Of a stretch of 48,714 nucleotides of DNA, positions 11,581 through 25,327 are shown in pieces. Numbering within the stretch: the first letter of the stretch is position 1; every line of letters begins with the position of its first letter. Under the pieces are notes generated by a model. That model did not search any database, was not told where the DNA came from, and was given only the letters and a program-made list of their open reading frames with translations. Where the stretch lies: contig CALHLC010000035.1 of the NCBI GenBank assembly GCA_938034385.1, positions 1-48,714 of the forward strand, given 5' to 3'. Source of the stretch: an uncultured Bacteriovoracaceae bacterium. Lineage in GTDB: Bacteria > Bdellovibrionota > Bacteriovoracia > Bacteriovoracales > Bacteriovoracaceae. Made by a program: the position numbers and the translations under genes.

Positions 11581-11683
11581 TCTTTTTAATCAAAATAATA
11601 TTTAAGTGACCACTTTAATTGGAAAGACTCTTCACCGATAATTGACTCTAAGTCTTTATATTTATTAGAATCTATTAAATAGG

Positions 11684-11710
11684 TAAAGTTTTCTTAGATC
11701 CCGCCGATAA
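11684..11710 (+). promoter_or_regulatory. Sigma-28 (FliA)-type promoter, consensus match
   Basis: TAAAGTTT, exactly 11 bases, then GCCGATAA: a full match to the classical sigma-28 consensus. The start codon of the cysteine-repeat lipoprotein lies 44 bases past the -10 element, with AGGAGG in between. A weaker sigma-70-like pair (TTGACT at 11642, 18 bases, TAGAAT at 11666) overlaps the same region. A second ACCGATAA at 11634 lacks a good -35. Confidence 0.88.
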
Positions 11711-11754
11711 GAACTCAAGTATAATAATACTCTAGTAGTACGTTAGGAGGAAAA

Positions 11755-12708
11755 ATGAAATTAACTTACTTAATGGTGACATTACTTACCTTAATAGGGT
11801 GCACGAACAATGCAAAACTTTATGATCCTGCTGCGGCTGGATACAATCCACCACCATCGACAACGTTAGCTCCGGTTAATGCTTGTCAGCCTGTTGTGAC
11901 CTTAGATACATTTTGTCAGCATGCTGATGGAACAAATGAAGATGGATCAGTAACTGATTTAGCTAGTAGCTATCAATCGGCTCCTGGAAAATGTTATTTT
12001 GTTGCTTGTGGTGATACAGATTATTCTGAAGCTGATCAAATGAGAGTCTATGAAGCTTATGTTGCAAAGTATGGTGGGGAAGTTAAGAAAGATTATGATC
12101 TTTGTAAGAACAAGAAAAATACTTATGATGATGAATGTAATGATAAAAATGCATACAACTTTGGAGACCCTGGAAAATGTTATTATAAAGGATGTGATCA
12201 GGTTGGAGATTTAGGAAATGTTCATTATCAAATTCTAACAGAGCTTTATGGTGCAGAAAATGTAACAGTAGACGCAGGTGCTTGTACTCAACTTCCAAAG
12301 CCTGGTTGTATGGTTACTACTGCAGAAAATTATGACCCTGAAGCCGGACATGACGATTGTAGCTGTAGATTTAAAACTTGTACTGATGATAGATATATAG
12401 AATTTACGCAGTATAATACAGCCGTTACAGCTTATGTTGGAGCTTGTGCTTCAGAAAATTTAACTGCAGAGAGTGCAGTTTGTGCTTCAAGCTGTCAGAC
12501 ATTAAACAAAGGTTGTACTGTTACTCAAGCAGATAACGCTGGTCCTTATACAGTTGAAGATGGAACTTGTACTTTTACAGGATGTTTAGATGATTATTGG
12601 ACTGAATATGATCCAGTTTTAAAAGAAGTTGTAATTGATTATGCAGCAACTCATGGATTAACAGTTGATGATATACTTACGAAAACGTGTAAAACACCAA
12701 ATCCATAA
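11755..12708 (+). CDS. Cysteine-repeat lipoprotein A (about 4 repeats)
   Basis: 317 residues with a lipoprotein signal ending in LTLIGC, then a NNAKLYDP segment shared with the two paralogues at 13217 and 15541 and a short proline-rich stretch. From C54 the protein is built of about four imperfect units of 57-75 residues. Each has four cysteines: one opening the unit in a C-x-x-x-x-A element, one in a D/N-G-T/S-C turn, one five residues later, and one closing a helical half. The turn resembles the GCTDPxAxNYxxxAxxDDGSC motif seen in many Bacteroidota surface proteins. Two disulfides per unit are likely. Function is unknown; a surface or periplasmic binding or adhesion role is inferred from lipidation, repeats and disulfides. 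It has its own FliA-type promoter, AGGAGG site and terminator, so it is a single-gene unit. Confidence 0.85.
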   Translation: MKLTYLMVTLLTLIGCTNNAKLYDPAAAGYNPPPSTTLAPVNACQPVVTLDTFCQHADGTNEDGSVTDLASSYQSAPGKCYFVACGDTDYSEADQMRVYEAYVAKYGGEVKKDYDLCKNKKNTYDDECNDKNAYNFGDPGKCYYKGCDQVGDLGNVHYQILTELYGAENVTVDAGACTQLPKPGCMVTTAENYDPEAGHDDCSCRFKTCTDDRYIEFTQYNTAVTAYVGACASENLTAESAVCASSCQTLNKGCTVTQADNAGPYTVEDGTCTFTGCLDDYWTEYDPVLKEVVIDYAATHGLTVDDILTKTCKTPNP

Positions 12709-12722
12709 TATTTTTAATATAT

Positions 12723-12752
12723 CGAGAGTACTTTAAAGTACTCTCGTTTTTT
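12723..12752 (+). terminator. Rho-independent terminator of lipoprotein A
   Basis: A 24-base perfect palindrome (12723-12746, arms ending in CGAGAGTACTTT) runs into six T's. It lies between the lipoprotein A stop and the convergent small lipoprotein gene. Confidence 0.9.
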
Positions 12753-12963
12753 ACTTCAAAGAGTTTTCTAATTGCTTGGCTTGTAAATCGATTTCATCCT
12801 CTAATGACAAATTAATCTCAATACTAGAAATCCCTCTTGTGTGTTTTTGAGGAGCTTTCTTTTCTATAGTTTGATTGTTTATTGAAACCTTTTGAGTTTT
12901 TATAGGGGCCTTCATACAAGATGAAAGAGCTAGAGTGAATAATGTTAGTATAAAAATTTTCAT
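12751..12963 (-). CDS. Small lipoprotein
   Basis: 70 residues: MKIFILTLFTLALSSC is a typical lipoprotein signal with lipobox LSSC. The mature part of about 55 residues is polar and charged and ends in a helical DEIDLQAKQLENSLK. AAAGGA sits about seven bases before the ATG. The first seven residues are the same as those of the phospholipase-D-like protein at 1510-4452, which may only reflect a favoured signal sequence. No function is recognised. It lies between lipoproteins A and B on the opposite strand. Confidence 0.7.
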   Translation of the reverse strand: MKIFILTLFTLALSSCMKAPIKTQKVSINNQTIEKKAPQKHTRGISSIEINLSLEDEIDLQAKQLENSLK

Positions 12964-13144
12964 ATTTTTTCCTTTACTAGAAATGAATAATAAATTTTAT
13001 CATGTCTAAAAATTCAAAGATTTAAGTAGATAGGAATTTCCCCTCTTAAAATGGTCAGTTATTTGAGGTTGATTTATACTCGCCTCGAAAAGTGTGCATA
13101 AAAGAGGAGAGCTAAAACTCTAAGTGTTTGAAATCTCTAAGAAT

Positions 13145-13171
13145 TAAAGTTTTATTCAATTGAACCGATAA
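13145..13171 (+). promoter_or_regulatory. Sigma-28 (FliA)-type promoter
   Basis: TAAAGTTT, 11 bases, then ACCGATAA: one mismatch from the consensus. The -10 element ends 45 bases before ATG 13217, nearly the same distance as in front of lipoprotein A. Confidence 0.85.
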
Positions 13172-13216
13172 ATCTTAGTAAAATAATTTTAAGGAAAAAT
13201 TACCTTGGGAGGAAAT

Positions 13217-15412
13217 ATGAACGTTTTAAAAATTGTAATTACACTACTTTTTATAGCTAGTTGTAATAATGCAAATCTTTATGATCCAGATGTAAGCCCT
13301 GGAACTCAAACAAGTCCAACTAAACCTGTCAATCCAGAAGGACCATTACCACCACCAAATGGAGGAGGCGGAGGAACTACTGCTGAGGTTGCTTGTCATC
13401 ATCCATTAGCAATTGATTACGATGCGGCGGCTTGGAAACAAGTTGGTCCATGTCAATTTCAAGCATGTGCTAATCCTGAATATGCAGAATTTGAATACTC
13501 AAACATTTACTTAGAATATATTGAAAGACATGGAGGAAATATAACTCCTAATAATGAACTATGTTTAACTAAGGTTGATGAATATAATCCCGTTTGCTCT
13601 CATCCTTTAGCTTTTAATAATGGAGTAGAAGGAAAATGTTTATTTAAAGCTTGTGCAACAGAAGGGTTTTATGAGCATGAAGTCTACTTAAGTTTGAAAA
13701 AACTATTTGGAGATGCCGTAAGTCATGACCCTACAGAGTGTAAGACAGCTTTTGTTTATAAGGGTTGTACTGACTCATTGGCAATGAATCATGACGAGAT
13801 CGCAACTTTAGATGATAAAAGTTGTAAATACCAGTTATGTACTGATTCAAGATCTGATGATTATGGAACGACAGAAAATCAAGCAATCTTACAAGCATTA
13901 ACAACTTATGCAGCAACTCATGAATTAAATATTGATGATCTTGTAGCACTAAATACATGTGCAGGATATGAAGAGGTACTTGGATGTAAAGTTCCAGGAG
14001 CTATTGGATATAATGCAGATGCTGATAAAGAAAACGGAAGTTGTAAGTGGGATGGTTGTTTAGATGAGTATAAAGATGGTTTCTCTGCTGAACTCTTAGC
14101 CATCGTTCAAGCTTACGCGACAACTCATGGTGGAACTCCAGAAAGTTACCTTGCAACTAACACTTGTACTGAGAAACCGATTCTAGGTTGTACAGTTACA
14201 GGAGCAATAGGATTTAATTCAAATGCTAACCAAGATAACGGAAGTTGTAAGTGGGATGGTTGTCTAGATGAGCAAAACGCTGGCTATACGAAAAATATTA
14301 AAGACGCAATTGATGCTTATAGTGCTATTCACGGTGTTAAAAATTATATTAGAAATTCTACTTGTATAGTAAAAGTTGAAGGCTGTATGCAAAGATCAGC
14401 TAATAATACTACAACAGGTGCAGAGGTAGATAATGGTAGTTGTCAGTGGGATGCGTGTATCAAGGGTAATATGTATGAAGGTCATGATGAATTGTTATTG
14501 AAGCTAATAACTCAATATGCTTCAGTTCATGGAGGAGTAGCTCAAAATTATATCAATCCAGAGTCGAACCTTTGTAAATTGAAAGGGTGTATGATTCCAG
14601 GAGCGACAAATTATAATAAAGCGGCTCAAGTTGATAATGGAAGTTGTAGGTGGAAAGGATGTATAAAAGGAAATAATTATGCAATCCACAATCCACAATT
14701 ATTAGCGTTACTTACAAATTATGCAAAAACTCATGGTGGGAATGCTCAAAGCTATATTGGTGTAGATCAGTGTAAGTTAAAAGGTTGTACTCACTCAAAT
14801 GCGGTTGGTTATAATCCACAAGCAGAAGTTGAGAATGGATCATGTAAATGGAATGGTTGTATCAATGGAGATACTTCAGTTGGTCATGATGCAGGCTTAT
14901 TAAACTTTTTAAAGAAGTATGCTCAAACTCATGGTGGAACGGCACAAAGTTATATAAATAAAGATTTATGTAAAAAGAAAGGTTGTTTGGCACCAAGAGC
15001 TAAGAACCCAACAGCAGGAGCACAAGTTGATGATGGATCTTGTAGATGGGATGGTTGTGCTGAATCAGCAGGTGTAAAAAACCCAGATGCTGCATTATTA
15101 AATATTATTAATGCTTATATTAGAGATCATGGTGGGACAAAAGCAAAGTACTTAAGTACTAATACATGTATACCTTTTACTAGAGGTTGTACTGAGGCCA
15201 GTGCACGGAATACAACAAACCCTAAGCCTGATATTGATAATGGTAGTTGTAGGTGGAACGCATGTTTAAATAAATGTAAGACTGGATATGTAGGAGCTGC
15301 TGCTGAAGCTTTAATCAGAGCTTACTCTGCAAAGCATAACCTAGGTCAAGGTGTAAGGACTAATACTTGTAAAGGTAGTAATAGATATCAATGTGTTGAT
15401 TCAGATTGGTAA
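13217..15412 (+). CDS. Cysteine-repeat lipoprotein B (about 10 repeats)
   Basis: 731 residues from ATG 13217, with GGGAGG just before it; a TTG at 13205 is in frame but lies before this ribosome site. The signal MNVLKIVITLLFIASC is a lipoprotein signal, followed by NNANLYDP, then a linker rich in Pro and Gly (PLPPPNGGGGG). From residue 60 to the end there are about ten units of 57-75 residues. A typical unit reads C-x3-GA-x-GYN-x6-NGSCKWDGC, then a helix with YA-x2-HGG and a YI-x4-C end, giving four cysteines each. Units 4-9 are the most alike and suggest recent internal duplication; units 1-3 match the first three of the paralogues instead. Function unknown. A long cross-linked stalk or adhesin on the outer membrane is plausible. 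Confidence 0.87.
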   Translation: MNVLKIVITLLFIASCNNANLYDPDVSPGTQTSPTKPVNPEGPLPPPNGGGGGTTAEVACHHPLAIDYDAAAWKQVGPCQFQACANPEYAEFEYSNIYLEYIERHGGNITPNNELCLTKVDEYNPVCSHPLAFNNGVEGKCLFKACATEGFYEHEVYLSLKKLFGDAVSHDPTECKTAFVYKGCTDSLAMNHDEIATLDDKSCKYQLCTDSRSDDYGTTENQAILQALTTYAATHELNIDDLVALNTCAGYEEVLGCKVPGAIGYNADADKENGSCKWDGCLDEYKDGFSAELLAIVQAYATTHGGTPESYLATNTCTEKPILGCTVTGAIGFNSNANQDNGSCKWDGCLDEQNAGYTKNIKDAIDAYSAIHGVKNYIRNSTCIVKVEGCMQRSANNTTTGAEVDNGSCQWDACIKGNMYEGHDELLLKLITQYASVHGGVAQNYINPESNLCKLKGCMIPGATNYNKAAQVDNGSCRWKGCIKGNNYAIHNPQLLALLTNYAKTHGGNAQSYIGVDQCKLKGCTHSNAVGYNPQAEVENGSCKWNGCINGDTSVGHDAGLLNFLKKYAQTHGGTAQSYINKDLCKKKGCLAPRAKNPTAGAQVDDGSCRWDGCAESAGVKNPDAALLNIINAYIRDHGGTKAKYLSTNTCIPFTRGCTEASARNTTNPKPDIDNGSCRWNACLNKCKTGYVGAAAEALIRAYSAKHNLGQGVRTNTCKGSNRYQCVDSDW
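13394..15373 (+). repeat. Tandem in-frame repeats of about 200 bases coding the four-cysteine units
   Basis: About ten protein-coding units of 57-75 codons each. The most similar stretches are around the GGAAGTTGTAAGTGG-type segments coding GSCKW (for example at 14036 and 14241). The copies are too diverged to be CRISPR or satellite repeats. Similar but fewer units lie at 11914-12690 (gene A) and 15730-17580 (gene C). Confidence 0.85.
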
Positions 15413-15435
15413 AGAATAATTTCTTATAAGAAAAG

Positions 15436-15462
15436 AGGAGTCTAATTAGACTCCTTTTTTTT
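15436..15462 (+). terminator. Rho-independent terminator of lipoprotein B
   Basis: A 20-base perfect palindrome (15436-15455, arm AGGAGTCTAA) is followed by a run of T's to 15462. Confidence 0.9.
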
Positions 15463-15486
15463 ACCTATAATTTATAAACTATATTC

Positions 15487-15513
15487 TAAAGTAATCTAGT
15501 ATTTCGTCGATAA
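15487..15513 (+). promoter_or_regulatory. Sigma-28 (FliA)-type promoter
   Basis: TAAAGTAA, 11 bases, then GTCGATAA: two mismatches in the -35 and one in the -10 element, with the conserved TAAAG and CGATAA cores kept. The start codon follows after 27 bases. Confidence 0.75.
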
Positions 15514-15540: not shown

Positions 15541-17886
15541 GTGAAAAATTTATTTCAATTAGTAATGGTATTTATTCTCGTTAGTTGTGGGAATGCACAT
15601 CTATTTGATCCAACCCAAAGTAGTGTTGGAAAATCTACAGGAACAACTAATGTCACTCCTCCACCTGTTGGACCACCAGTACTTCCTCCGCCGGGAGGTG
15701 GAGTTAATCCAATTACTCCTCAACTATTATGTCAGCATCATGAAGGTGAAAACTTTAATGCTAGTAAGTGGACAGAGCCAGGAGCTTGTACTTTTAAAGC
15801 ATGTGATAATGAGAACTATACAGAGTTTGAAAAAAGAACTGTTTTTCAAGTTTATATAGATCAACATGGTGGAAAAATCATTAATGACTCTAGTCTTTGT
15901 AAAAATAAAAAAGATGAGTATGGTAAAAAGTGTGATAATCCAAGGGCCTATAATTTTCAAACTTTAGAGAGTTGTAAGTTTAAAGGTTGTGGACTTGAGC
16001 AATATTGTGAATATCAAGATTACTTAGTGTTACAATCTCTATATGGTGATGCTGTAGAGCATGATGAATCTTATTGTAAGCATAAAAAAGTGTTACCAGG
16101 CTGCCTGGATCCACTTGCTTATAATACAAGTGAAGATGCTGGATATGATGACGAGTCTTGTCTTTATAAGGCTTGTAGAATGAGTGAATATTTAGAATTT
16201 GATTCTGATGAAAATAAAACAATTATTGAAGCTGCAATTAAATACTCAAATAAGTATGGGCTAAGTTTAGACCATCTAATTGAAAATACTTGTCATACTC
16301 CAAAGCCATATAATGGTTGTATGACTCCTGGTGCATCAAATTATGACTCTAAGAATACTGTCGATGATAAAGGATATTGTCGCTGGAGTGCTTGTTTAAC
16401 TCCAGGTTATGCTGAATATAATATTGATATAGTAAGAGTTATAGAAAACTATGCCTTAAAATATTCTGTAAGTTTGAATGACCTAATTGTTTCTAATACT
16501 TGTGTTACTAAGAAAGTAGGATGTACGGTGCAAGGAGCAATTGGATATGATGCTACTGCCTTACAAGACAATGGTACTTGTCGTTGGGAGCAAGGATGTA
16601 TTCGAAGTGGACTTGGTGGTTTCAATGCAGAGTTAGCTCAAAAAATTAATGCTTATGCTCAAAAGCATGGTAGTTCTGCTCAATCATATATTAACAAAGA
16701 TACTTGTGTTGAAAAAAATGGATGTATGGTAAGTGGGGCCATTGGTTATAGTAGCGACAATAAAAATGAAGATGGAAGTTGTAAATGGAATGCGTGTATT
16801 AAACCTGGGTATGGAGGTTATGTTGCAAGTCTTCATAATACGATTAAAAAATATGCTAAGAAATTTAATAAAAGTGAAGAGAGCTATATTAATCAAAACA
16901 CTTGTATAAGCAAAGCTGGGTGTACTCAAGAATCGGCTGATAATTATAATAAAGATGCAACGACTGAAAATGGGAGCTGTAAGTGGACTATTTGTTGCAA
17001 TGAAGGTGGTTATGGAAGTCATCCTGTACCAGCAAATATAAAGAGTTATATTGCGATGATTTTAAATAAAAATGTAAATCAGCTAACTCATGCAGATCTT
17101 GCTAAGTTCACAACTTTAAAGACTGATTGCAAGGATGATGAAGAAGTTGTGGGTTGTATGGACCCTAAAGCTGACAACACTGTTGAGAATGCAACAAAAG
17201 ATAATGGGTCTTGCAAATATTCTTATTGTACGGATTGTACATACAAGGAACAAACTGCTGATATGTGTGTTGATCCATCCATAAGAGATAAAGAAGTGAT
17301 GACCTCAGCAGTAGAGTATGCAAGCATTCATAAAAAAGCATTGAAAGATATAGTTATGAGTACATGTAAAGAAAGCCATAATATGTCAGGATGTACGAAT
17401 CCATATGCTGCAAATTATAGAGCAGAGGCGAGCACAGAAGATAAGAGTTGTTTTTTCTTTGTGTGTTATGAAGGGTCTTATCAAACAAGTGATTCCGTAA
17501 TTACTAAGCATATTCAAAATTATGCGACCTTAATTGGAAAACCAATCGATACAAATTGTCAGAATCCTTTTGATAAAGAAAAAGTTTGTGTTAGACAAAA
17601 ATGTAATGGTGGAGCAGGAAAGAAAGTTATTATTAAGTTAGATGATAGCTGCTTGAATGAAGCTTATCATACAGTCTTATTAAGATTAACTAAAGGTACA
17701 AATACAGAACCAAAATATTTGTCAACACCACAACATATTATTGCTCAAAACATAACATCTGGACTTGATTATAAAATTGAGATTTTAAATGGAGCAAATG
17801 GATTCTACTTTTTCGAAGATGGAGTCTCTAGTGTTTCAGGGAAAGCAACCTCAGACATTATTAAAACTGTAAAGTGTAGAGAGTAA
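15541..17886 (+). CDS. Cysteine-repeat lipoprotein C (about 9 repeats plus C-terminal domain)
   Basis: 781 residues from GTG 15541, with GGAG about eight bases upstream; the next in-frame ATG would cut the signal peptide. The lipobox is ILVSC, followed by GNAHLFDP (compare NNANLYDP in B) and a linker PPPVGPPVLPPPGG. From residue 64 there are about nine four-cysteine units of the same kind as in A and B. The units near the end are longer and less regular, for example one with a CC pair and a THADLAKFTTLKTDC insert. After the last unit a domain of about 110 residues is unique to C: it has two or three cysteines, a beta-rich pattern (TVLLRLTKG, YKIEILNGANGFYFFEDG) and could be a terminal recognition or capping domain. 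Function unknown. Confidence 0.87.
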   Translation: MKNLFQLVMVFILVSCGNAHLFDPTQSSVGKSTGTTNVTPPPVGPPVLPPPGGGVNPITPQLLCQHHEGENFNASKWTEPGACTFKACDNENYTEFEKRTVFQVYIDQHGGKIINDSSLCKNKKDEYGKKCDNPRAYNFQTLESCKFKGCGLEQYCEYQDYLVLQSLYGDAVEHDESYCKHKKVLPGCLDPLAYNTSEDAGYDDESCLYKACRMSEYLEFDSDENKTIIEAAIKYSNKYGLSLDHLIENTCHTPKPYNGCMTPGASNYDSKNTVDDKGYCRWSACLTPGYAEYNIDIVRVIENYALKYSVSLNDLIVSNTCVTKKVGCTVQGAIGYDATALQDNGTCRWEQGCIRSGLGGFNAELAQKINAYAQKHGSSAQSYINKDTCVEKNGCMVSGAIGYSSDNKNEDGSCKWNACIKPGYGGYVASLHNTIKKYAKKFNKSEESYINQNTCISKAGCTQESADNYNKDATTENGSCKWTICCNEGGYGSHPVPANIKSYIAMILNKNVNQLTHADLAKFTTLKTDCKDDEEVVGCMDPKADNTVENATKDNGSCKYSYCTDCTYKEQTADMCVDPSIRDKEVMTSAVEYASIHKKALKDIVMSTCKESHNMSGCTNPYAANYRAEASTEDKSCFFFVCYEGSYQTSDSVITKHIQNYATLIGKPIDTNCQNPFDKEKVCVRQKCNGGAGKKVIIKLDDSCLNEAYHTVLLRLTKGTNTEPKYLSTPQHIIAQNITSGLDYKIEILNGANGFYFFEDGVSSVSGKATSDIIKTVKCRE

Positions 17887-17897
17887 GTAAAATAGAG

Positions 17898-17927
17898 ATA
17901 GTAAGTACTTTTTTAAGTACTTACTAT
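17898..17927. terminator. Hairpin between convergent genes, probable bidirectional terminator
   Basis: A perfect 13-base stem (17898-17910 with 17915-17927, core AGTAAGTACTT) with a TTTT loop. The T-tract is weak on either side. It sits between lipoprotein C and the convergent gene that ends at 17929. Confidence 0.65.
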
Positions 17928-20444: not shown

Positions 20445-20609
20445 GATAAGTGTAAACTAACATGCTGAATTTATTAGTGATAATTGCAAAGCGTTAAGAG
20501 CTAGATTTGAGAGCTTATTAAACCATACTAGAGTATTAAGTTTTTATGAAGAAATTTACCTATTTAGATATAAATTTATAGGGAGGTTAGATTCAGGCGA
20601 TAAGTGGTT

Positions 20610-25106: not shown

Positions 25107-25327
25107 TTAAAAGTACAATAAAATGTTTGATAGAATTAGTTGAGATATACATTGTATTTCCTTACCTGTCGTTTAATATACATTAATATCGCTATATAGA
25201 ACCAATTGAAATGGTGTAAAGAATTCATATGTATGAATAAAAGTTGAACGTTTAACTCTTGTATGAAGAGTAAATATTTTCTTCATTTTTTGATAAGAAA
25301 AAACAGAAAAGAGCCGATAAAAGTTGT

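Follow-up and report, generated by a model that had tools for sequence, protein, structure and literature searches.

In an uncultured genus of the family Bacteriovoracaceae (phylum Bdellovibrionota), the sigma-28 factor FliA has, very probably, been kept after the loss of the flagellum as the regulator of a small regulon of surface and exported proteins. This reading is based on genome comparison and includes among the regulon members three paralogous lipoprotein genes, here called A, B, and C. The three genes lie in the window, that is, the entire analyzed stretch of 48,714 nucleotides, a single contig from a draft genome of 2.67 Mb with 99.3% completeness. The genus set comprised four uncultured Bacteriovoracaceae, namely, the window genome (G000), G001 (JAHDHG01), G002 (JAHDBN01), and G003 (CALIJZ01).

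Results

FliA-Type Promoters of Three Lipoprotein Genes

The identified promoters, genes, and terminators are as follows.

11684–11710, plus strand: FliA-type promoter of gene A, TAAAGTTT-N11-GCCGATAA, exact consensus, 44 nt to ATG 11755
11755–12708, plus strand: gene A, 317-aa Cys-repeat lipoprotein (open reading frame, lipobox LIGC, paralogy; orthologue in G003)
12723–12746, plus strand: intrinsic terminator after A, 10-bp stem, then TTTTTT
13145–13171, plus strand: FliA-type promoter of gene B, TAAAGTTT-N11-ACCGATAA, one mismatch, 45 nt to ATG 13217
13217–15412, plus strand: gene B, 731-aa Cys-repeat lipoprotein (open reading frame, repeats of about 66 aa, Shine–Dalgarno sequence GGGAGG before ATG 13217; the ORF finder gives an alternative start, TTG 13205)
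15436–15455, plus strand (that of the T-run): terminator hairpin after B, AGGAGTCTAATTAGACTCCT, then TTTTTT
15487–15513, plus strand: FliA-type promoter of gene C, TAAAGTAA-N11-GTCGATAA, three mismatches, 27 nt to GTG 15541
15541–17886, plus strand: gene C, 781-aa Cys-repeat lipoprotein with a GTG start (open reading frame, paralogy)
17898–17927, strand unassigned: terminator-like hairpin after C, 13-bp stem

The original prediction described three paralogous lipoprotein genes, each with its own FliA-type promoter and its own terminator, and these features are indeed present. All three products have a signal peptide and a lipobox cysteine (…LIGC in A, …IASC in B, …LVSC in C) and share 32–34% identity. 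The promoters belong to the class TAAAG…-N11-…CGATAA, with the −35 element TAAAG(TTT) and the −10 element (G)CCGATAA; the 11-base spacers and the distances of 27–45 nt to the start codon are as had been described, and so is the exact consensus before gene A. Hairpins followed by T-runs after A and B, the terminator-like hairpin after C, and a small lipoprotein gene of 70 aa on the minus strand between A and B (12754–12963, unlisted) mark A, B, and C, as far as the DNA itself can tell, as three separate transcription units.

The promoter motifs are unlikely to be due to chance: with TAAAGTTT-N11-GCCGATAA as the scoring reference, the observed score was reached by none of 5000 dinucleotide shuffles of the 120-nt upstream region of each gene. 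The strict pattern TAAAGTTT-N11-NCCGATAA has only three matches in the 2.67-Mb genome, two of them being the promoters in the window, and the backward pattern has none. Promoter C is weaker if taken alone (TAAAGTNN-N11-NNCGATAA yields eight matches vs. four in the control), and the gene C orthologue in G003 has a better copy, TAAAGTAT-N11-TCCGATAA. Since at three mismatches the motif barely exceeds the control (104 vs. 81), weight was given to strict matches only.

Several weaker matches were also observed. A second FliA-like match, TTAATTGG-N11-ACCGATAA, lies at 11615–11641, 43 nt 5′ of promoter A, and two more in the window (20577–20603 and 25293–25320) each precede a predicted exported protein, ending 0 and 7 nt, respectively, before its start.

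The lipoproteins belong to no family in Pfam or NCBIfam, and their profile has no match among solved structures. The predicted structure of the full gene A product is poor (pLDDT 54); a single repeat of about 66 aa, modeled alone, yields a confident fold (pLDDT 95) with no significant structural match, and the only piece it has in common with other proteins is a 23-residue stretch with about 50% identity in viral proteins. The repeat unit, GC..A.NY...A..DNGSC.W.GC plus a helix, is found at 13763–15187 and 16315–16917 of the window. The family was found in only seven out of 98 genomes searched.

FliA Without Core Flagellar Genes

According to the profile search, the window genome encodes one FliA, full-length and above the family cut-off (275.8 bits), with its DNA-reading regions. 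No flagellin, FlhA, or FliG was found in this genome, while known flagellates, used as controls, were detected; FlhA and FliG are absent in all four genomes of the genus. FlhA was found in 75 out of the 98 genomes. In Halobacteriovorax marinus the gene order is flhA-flhF-flhG-fliA; beside fliA of the genus (locus L051, 8744–9547), according to tblastn, flhA and flhG are gone, and an flhF-like gene alone stays in three genomes, with none in G001. Thus, the flagellum seems to have been lost in the window bacterium and throughout its genus.

Could the flagellar genes be merely missing from the assemblies, so that we deal with ordinary flagellated Bacteriovoracaceae having an attack-phase FliA regulon of the usual kind? 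The four assemblies are drafts (40–200 contigs, 88–99% complete), which leaves some room for such gaps. However, FlhA and FliG are missing from four genomes out of four, yet FlhA is present in 50 out of 56 other genomes of the family, many of lower completeness, and the fliA neighborhood has been assembled and lacks flhA and flhG. We thus regard this explanation as highly improbable and retain the loss of the flagellum.

The flhF-like neighbor of fliA was considered as a possible relic due to its degenerate P-loop. This reading was dropped, as FlhF of H. marinus also has no canonical loop (L104, 5573–7057, compared to L051, 7544–8671, in the genus) and a dN/dS of 0.053 shows selection on the gene.

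The FliA of the genus is under strong purifying selection: the proteins of G000 and G003 are 98.5% identical (dN 0.02, dS 1.56, dN/dS 0.013). With conserved columns defined in 67 relatives having flhA nearby, changes common to all four members of the genus affect 12 out of 36 such columns in region 3 and the linker vs. five out of 111 in regions 2 and 4 (p = 2e-5); hence, the DNA-reading parts have been held. One possible reading of the changes in region 3 and the linker is the loss of a contact with a partner such as FlgM.

Among genomes that are at least 90% complete, ten have no FlhA, and nine of these ten keep FliA above the cut-off. Genomes with FliA above the cut-off and without FlhA come from several families of the phylum (G031, G062, G070, G072, G077, and G096, loci L055–L060), which suggests that in Bdellovibrionota FliA is often kept when the flagellum is lost.

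Conservation of the Promoters

In G003, the three genes are syntenic and all three promoters are kept, at distances of 44 (A), 49 (B), and 27 nt (C) from the start codon; that of gene A is TAAAGTTT-N11-ACCGATAA and that of gene B is TAAAGTTT-N12-ACCGATAT, with a 12-base spacer. In the alignments of the G000 and G003 promoters, the −35 and −10 elements are held for A, B, and C, while the spacers and flanks have diverged. As dS of the three genes is near 1.1, this conservation is not due to recency.

The 44-nt leader of gene A (11711–11755) is nearly unchanged between G000 and G003, with the region upstream diverged, and holds TATAAT and a strong Shine–Dalgarno sequence; further regulation may reside in this conserved leader.

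For 29 genes of the lipoprotein family in the genus and in G043, the mean best promoter score is 10.4 vs. 5.3 for unrelated genes (p = 3e-5). The scores are split, with 15 genes reaching 9 and 14 falling below it, and the adjacent lipoprotein gene pairs in L178 and L183 (four genes) have no recognizable promoter site. That about half of the family members have no convincing site counts against FliA as their common regulator. Hence, the suggestion that the same control was kept or gained three times is borne out for A, B, and C in the nearest species and fails for several other family members in the genus.

Sites Throughout the Genus

The motif TAAAG-N15/16-CCGATA occurs at 59 sites in the four genomes vs. 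eight for the backward control, and 49 of the 59 precede a same-strand gene by 5–70 nt. The original prediction had proposed scanning the genome for enrichment of the motif before exported proteins. This was done via whole-genome pattern searches with backward controls and a 400-kb sample picked regardless of the motif, whose 383 genes served as the baseline: exported proteins make up 35 of the 49 site-bearing genes (71%) vs. 120 of 383 (31%; p = 1e-8), with the reservations that export was called by a simple, crude signal-peptide rule and that orthologues across the four genomes are not independent. In a random 400-kb sample of the window genome, at score 10, the enrichment of lipoproteins is modest (4/26 vs. 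9/263, p = 0.02), hence the regulon is small and leaves out most exported genes. Near-consensus sites number 26 in the genus vs. four in the control; this is comparable to 50 FlhA-positive members of the family, in which they average 5.96 vs. 1.36 per genome.

The groups of sites seen in more than one genome include those of the Cys-repeat lipoproteins, a second lipoprotein family, a cytochrome c lipoprotein, a phosphodiesterase-like exported protein, and a PilZ-GAF-AAA regulator. For the latter two, the site is also present in flagellated relatives, that of the PilZ-GAF-AAA regulator being common to two flagellated genomes. The motif also lies before the flagellin gene (L228) and the Flp pilin gene (L218) in flagellated relatives, which ties it to FliA.

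The distances from the sites to the genes are structured: CCGATA ends exactly 7–9 nt before the start codon at 15 of the 49 sites, and none of the distances is 15–18 nt. The start of sigma-28 transcription falls about 7–9 nt after CCGATA. Such spacing leaves no room for a Shine–Dalgarno sequence, and thus the close-spaced sites, about a third, probably give leaderless mRNAs. Among the 27 sites at least 15 nt from the start, 20 have a Shine–Dalgarno-like sequence; promoters A, B, and C belong to this leadered class. Motifs ending 7–9 nt before the start were seen in L256, L264, L276, L280, L282, L283, L286, L292, L294, L249, L250, and others, and a close-spaced FliA-type motif occurs in flagellated relatives as well (L227).

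These data bear on the alternative that the motifs are remnants of an ancestral control by FliA, with A, B, and C transcribed from other promoters. Candidate sigma-70 elements do exist near gene A, including the strongly conserved leader with TATAAT and a sigma-70-like match just 5′ of the gene (11642–11671), although such matches are not more common than in shuffled sequences. On the other hand, at dS of 1.1–1.6 unselected relics would decay, yet the −35 and −10 elements persist where the spacers have changed; FliA itself is strongly conserved; and the sites show a genus-wide sevenfold excess, with structured distances to start codons. We therefore find this alternative very unlikely and favor FliA as the acting regulator.

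Discussion

According to the interpretation that we favor, the sigma-28 promoters of A, B, and C would be read by the only FliA of the genome, in a genus that lost the flagellum and retained this factor. FliA would now regulate a small regulon of mainly lipoproteins and other exported proteins, together with a PilZ-GAF-AAA signaling protein. FliA–RNA polymerase would bind the sites before A, B, and C and initiate transcription of each gene separately, so that the lipoprotein family would appear together in any cell state in which FliA is active. The original prediction assigned these proteins to the surface programme of motile cells; this finds no support, since, with FlhA and FliG missing throughout the genus and flagellin missing from the window genome, the regulon has no flagellated swimming cell to be linked with.

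The closest known system is the FliA regulon of Bdellovibrio bacteriovorus from the same phylum, with a nearly identical motif, TTAAG-N16-CCGATA, found in 92 out of 140 attack-phase promoters, and with many surface and exported targets (Bdellovibrio: PMC3627812, PMC5430801), as for 35 of the 49 site-bearing genes here. In contrast to the genus studied here, where core flagellar genes are absent, B. bacteriovorus has a flagellum, with flagellar genes also under the control of its FliA; in the window genome, no flagellin, FlhA, or FliG gene exists for such a regulon to include. Expression of the regulon would be stage-specific, by likeness to the Bdellovibrio attack phase, and the lipoproteins would serve surface contact. 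A role in prey contact or dispersal is plausible, given the attack-phase promoters of Bdellovibrio FliA and the failure to delete its gene (PMC3627812, PMC5430801).

A narrower form of the same explanation, rather than an exclusive alternative, assumes that these are FliA promoters of a motile, prey-hunting, Bdellovibrio-like cell in which pili or gliding replace the flagellum. Bdellovibrio FliA is an attack-phase regulator (PMC3627812) and drives TAD pilus genes (PMC5430801), and the window genome encodes a T2SSE-family ATPase resembling TadA/CpaF and a T2SSF protein; however, none of the 59 genus sites precedes a pilus gene. We consider this version possible, with the chances somewhat against it.

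Two other non-flagellated bacteria provide parallels. In Legionella oakridgensis, FliA has outlasted the flagellar regulon and has non-flagellar targets; there, FlgM is kept and, according to a review, no FliA-dependent virulence genes have been found so far (PMC5655016), whereas in the genus of the window a conserved set of promoters of exported proteins can be recognized in four species. Sigma-28 of Chlamydia trachomatis, which has no flagellum, serves a developmental switch; its regulon comprises two genes, hctB and tsp, and the flagellar-type secretion genes flhA and fliI are kept (PMC10597470), unlike FlhA in the genus considered here. Non-motile genomes often contain FliA matches (PMC12199754). 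In the open-licence papers searched, we found no description of a Bacteriovoracaceae genus that lacks the flagellum and has a conserved FliA regulon comprising surface lipoproteins.

A more general proposal, to which we assign roughly even chances, is that in several flagellum-less lineages of Bdellovibrionota FliA is the master of a surface-protein program for dispersal or attack. As the checkpoint based on FlgM export cannot act without the flagellar export apparatus, a new control of FliA would have to exist, perhaps through the PilZ (cyclic-di-GMP) pathway, which has been retained; leaderless mRNAs would make up part of the program, their promoters lying ahead of the start codon by exactly one transcription-start distance.

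In Bdellovibrio, FliA has been reported to be essential and to act as a global attack-phase regulator (PMC3627812, PMC5430801), and what it does apart from the flagellum is difficult to isolate. A genus that has kept FliA and its targets and lost the flagellum provides a natural separation, the remaining sites being a short list of the purposes that FliA may serve other than swimming. It also raises the question of how FliA is restrained without flagellar export of FlgM.
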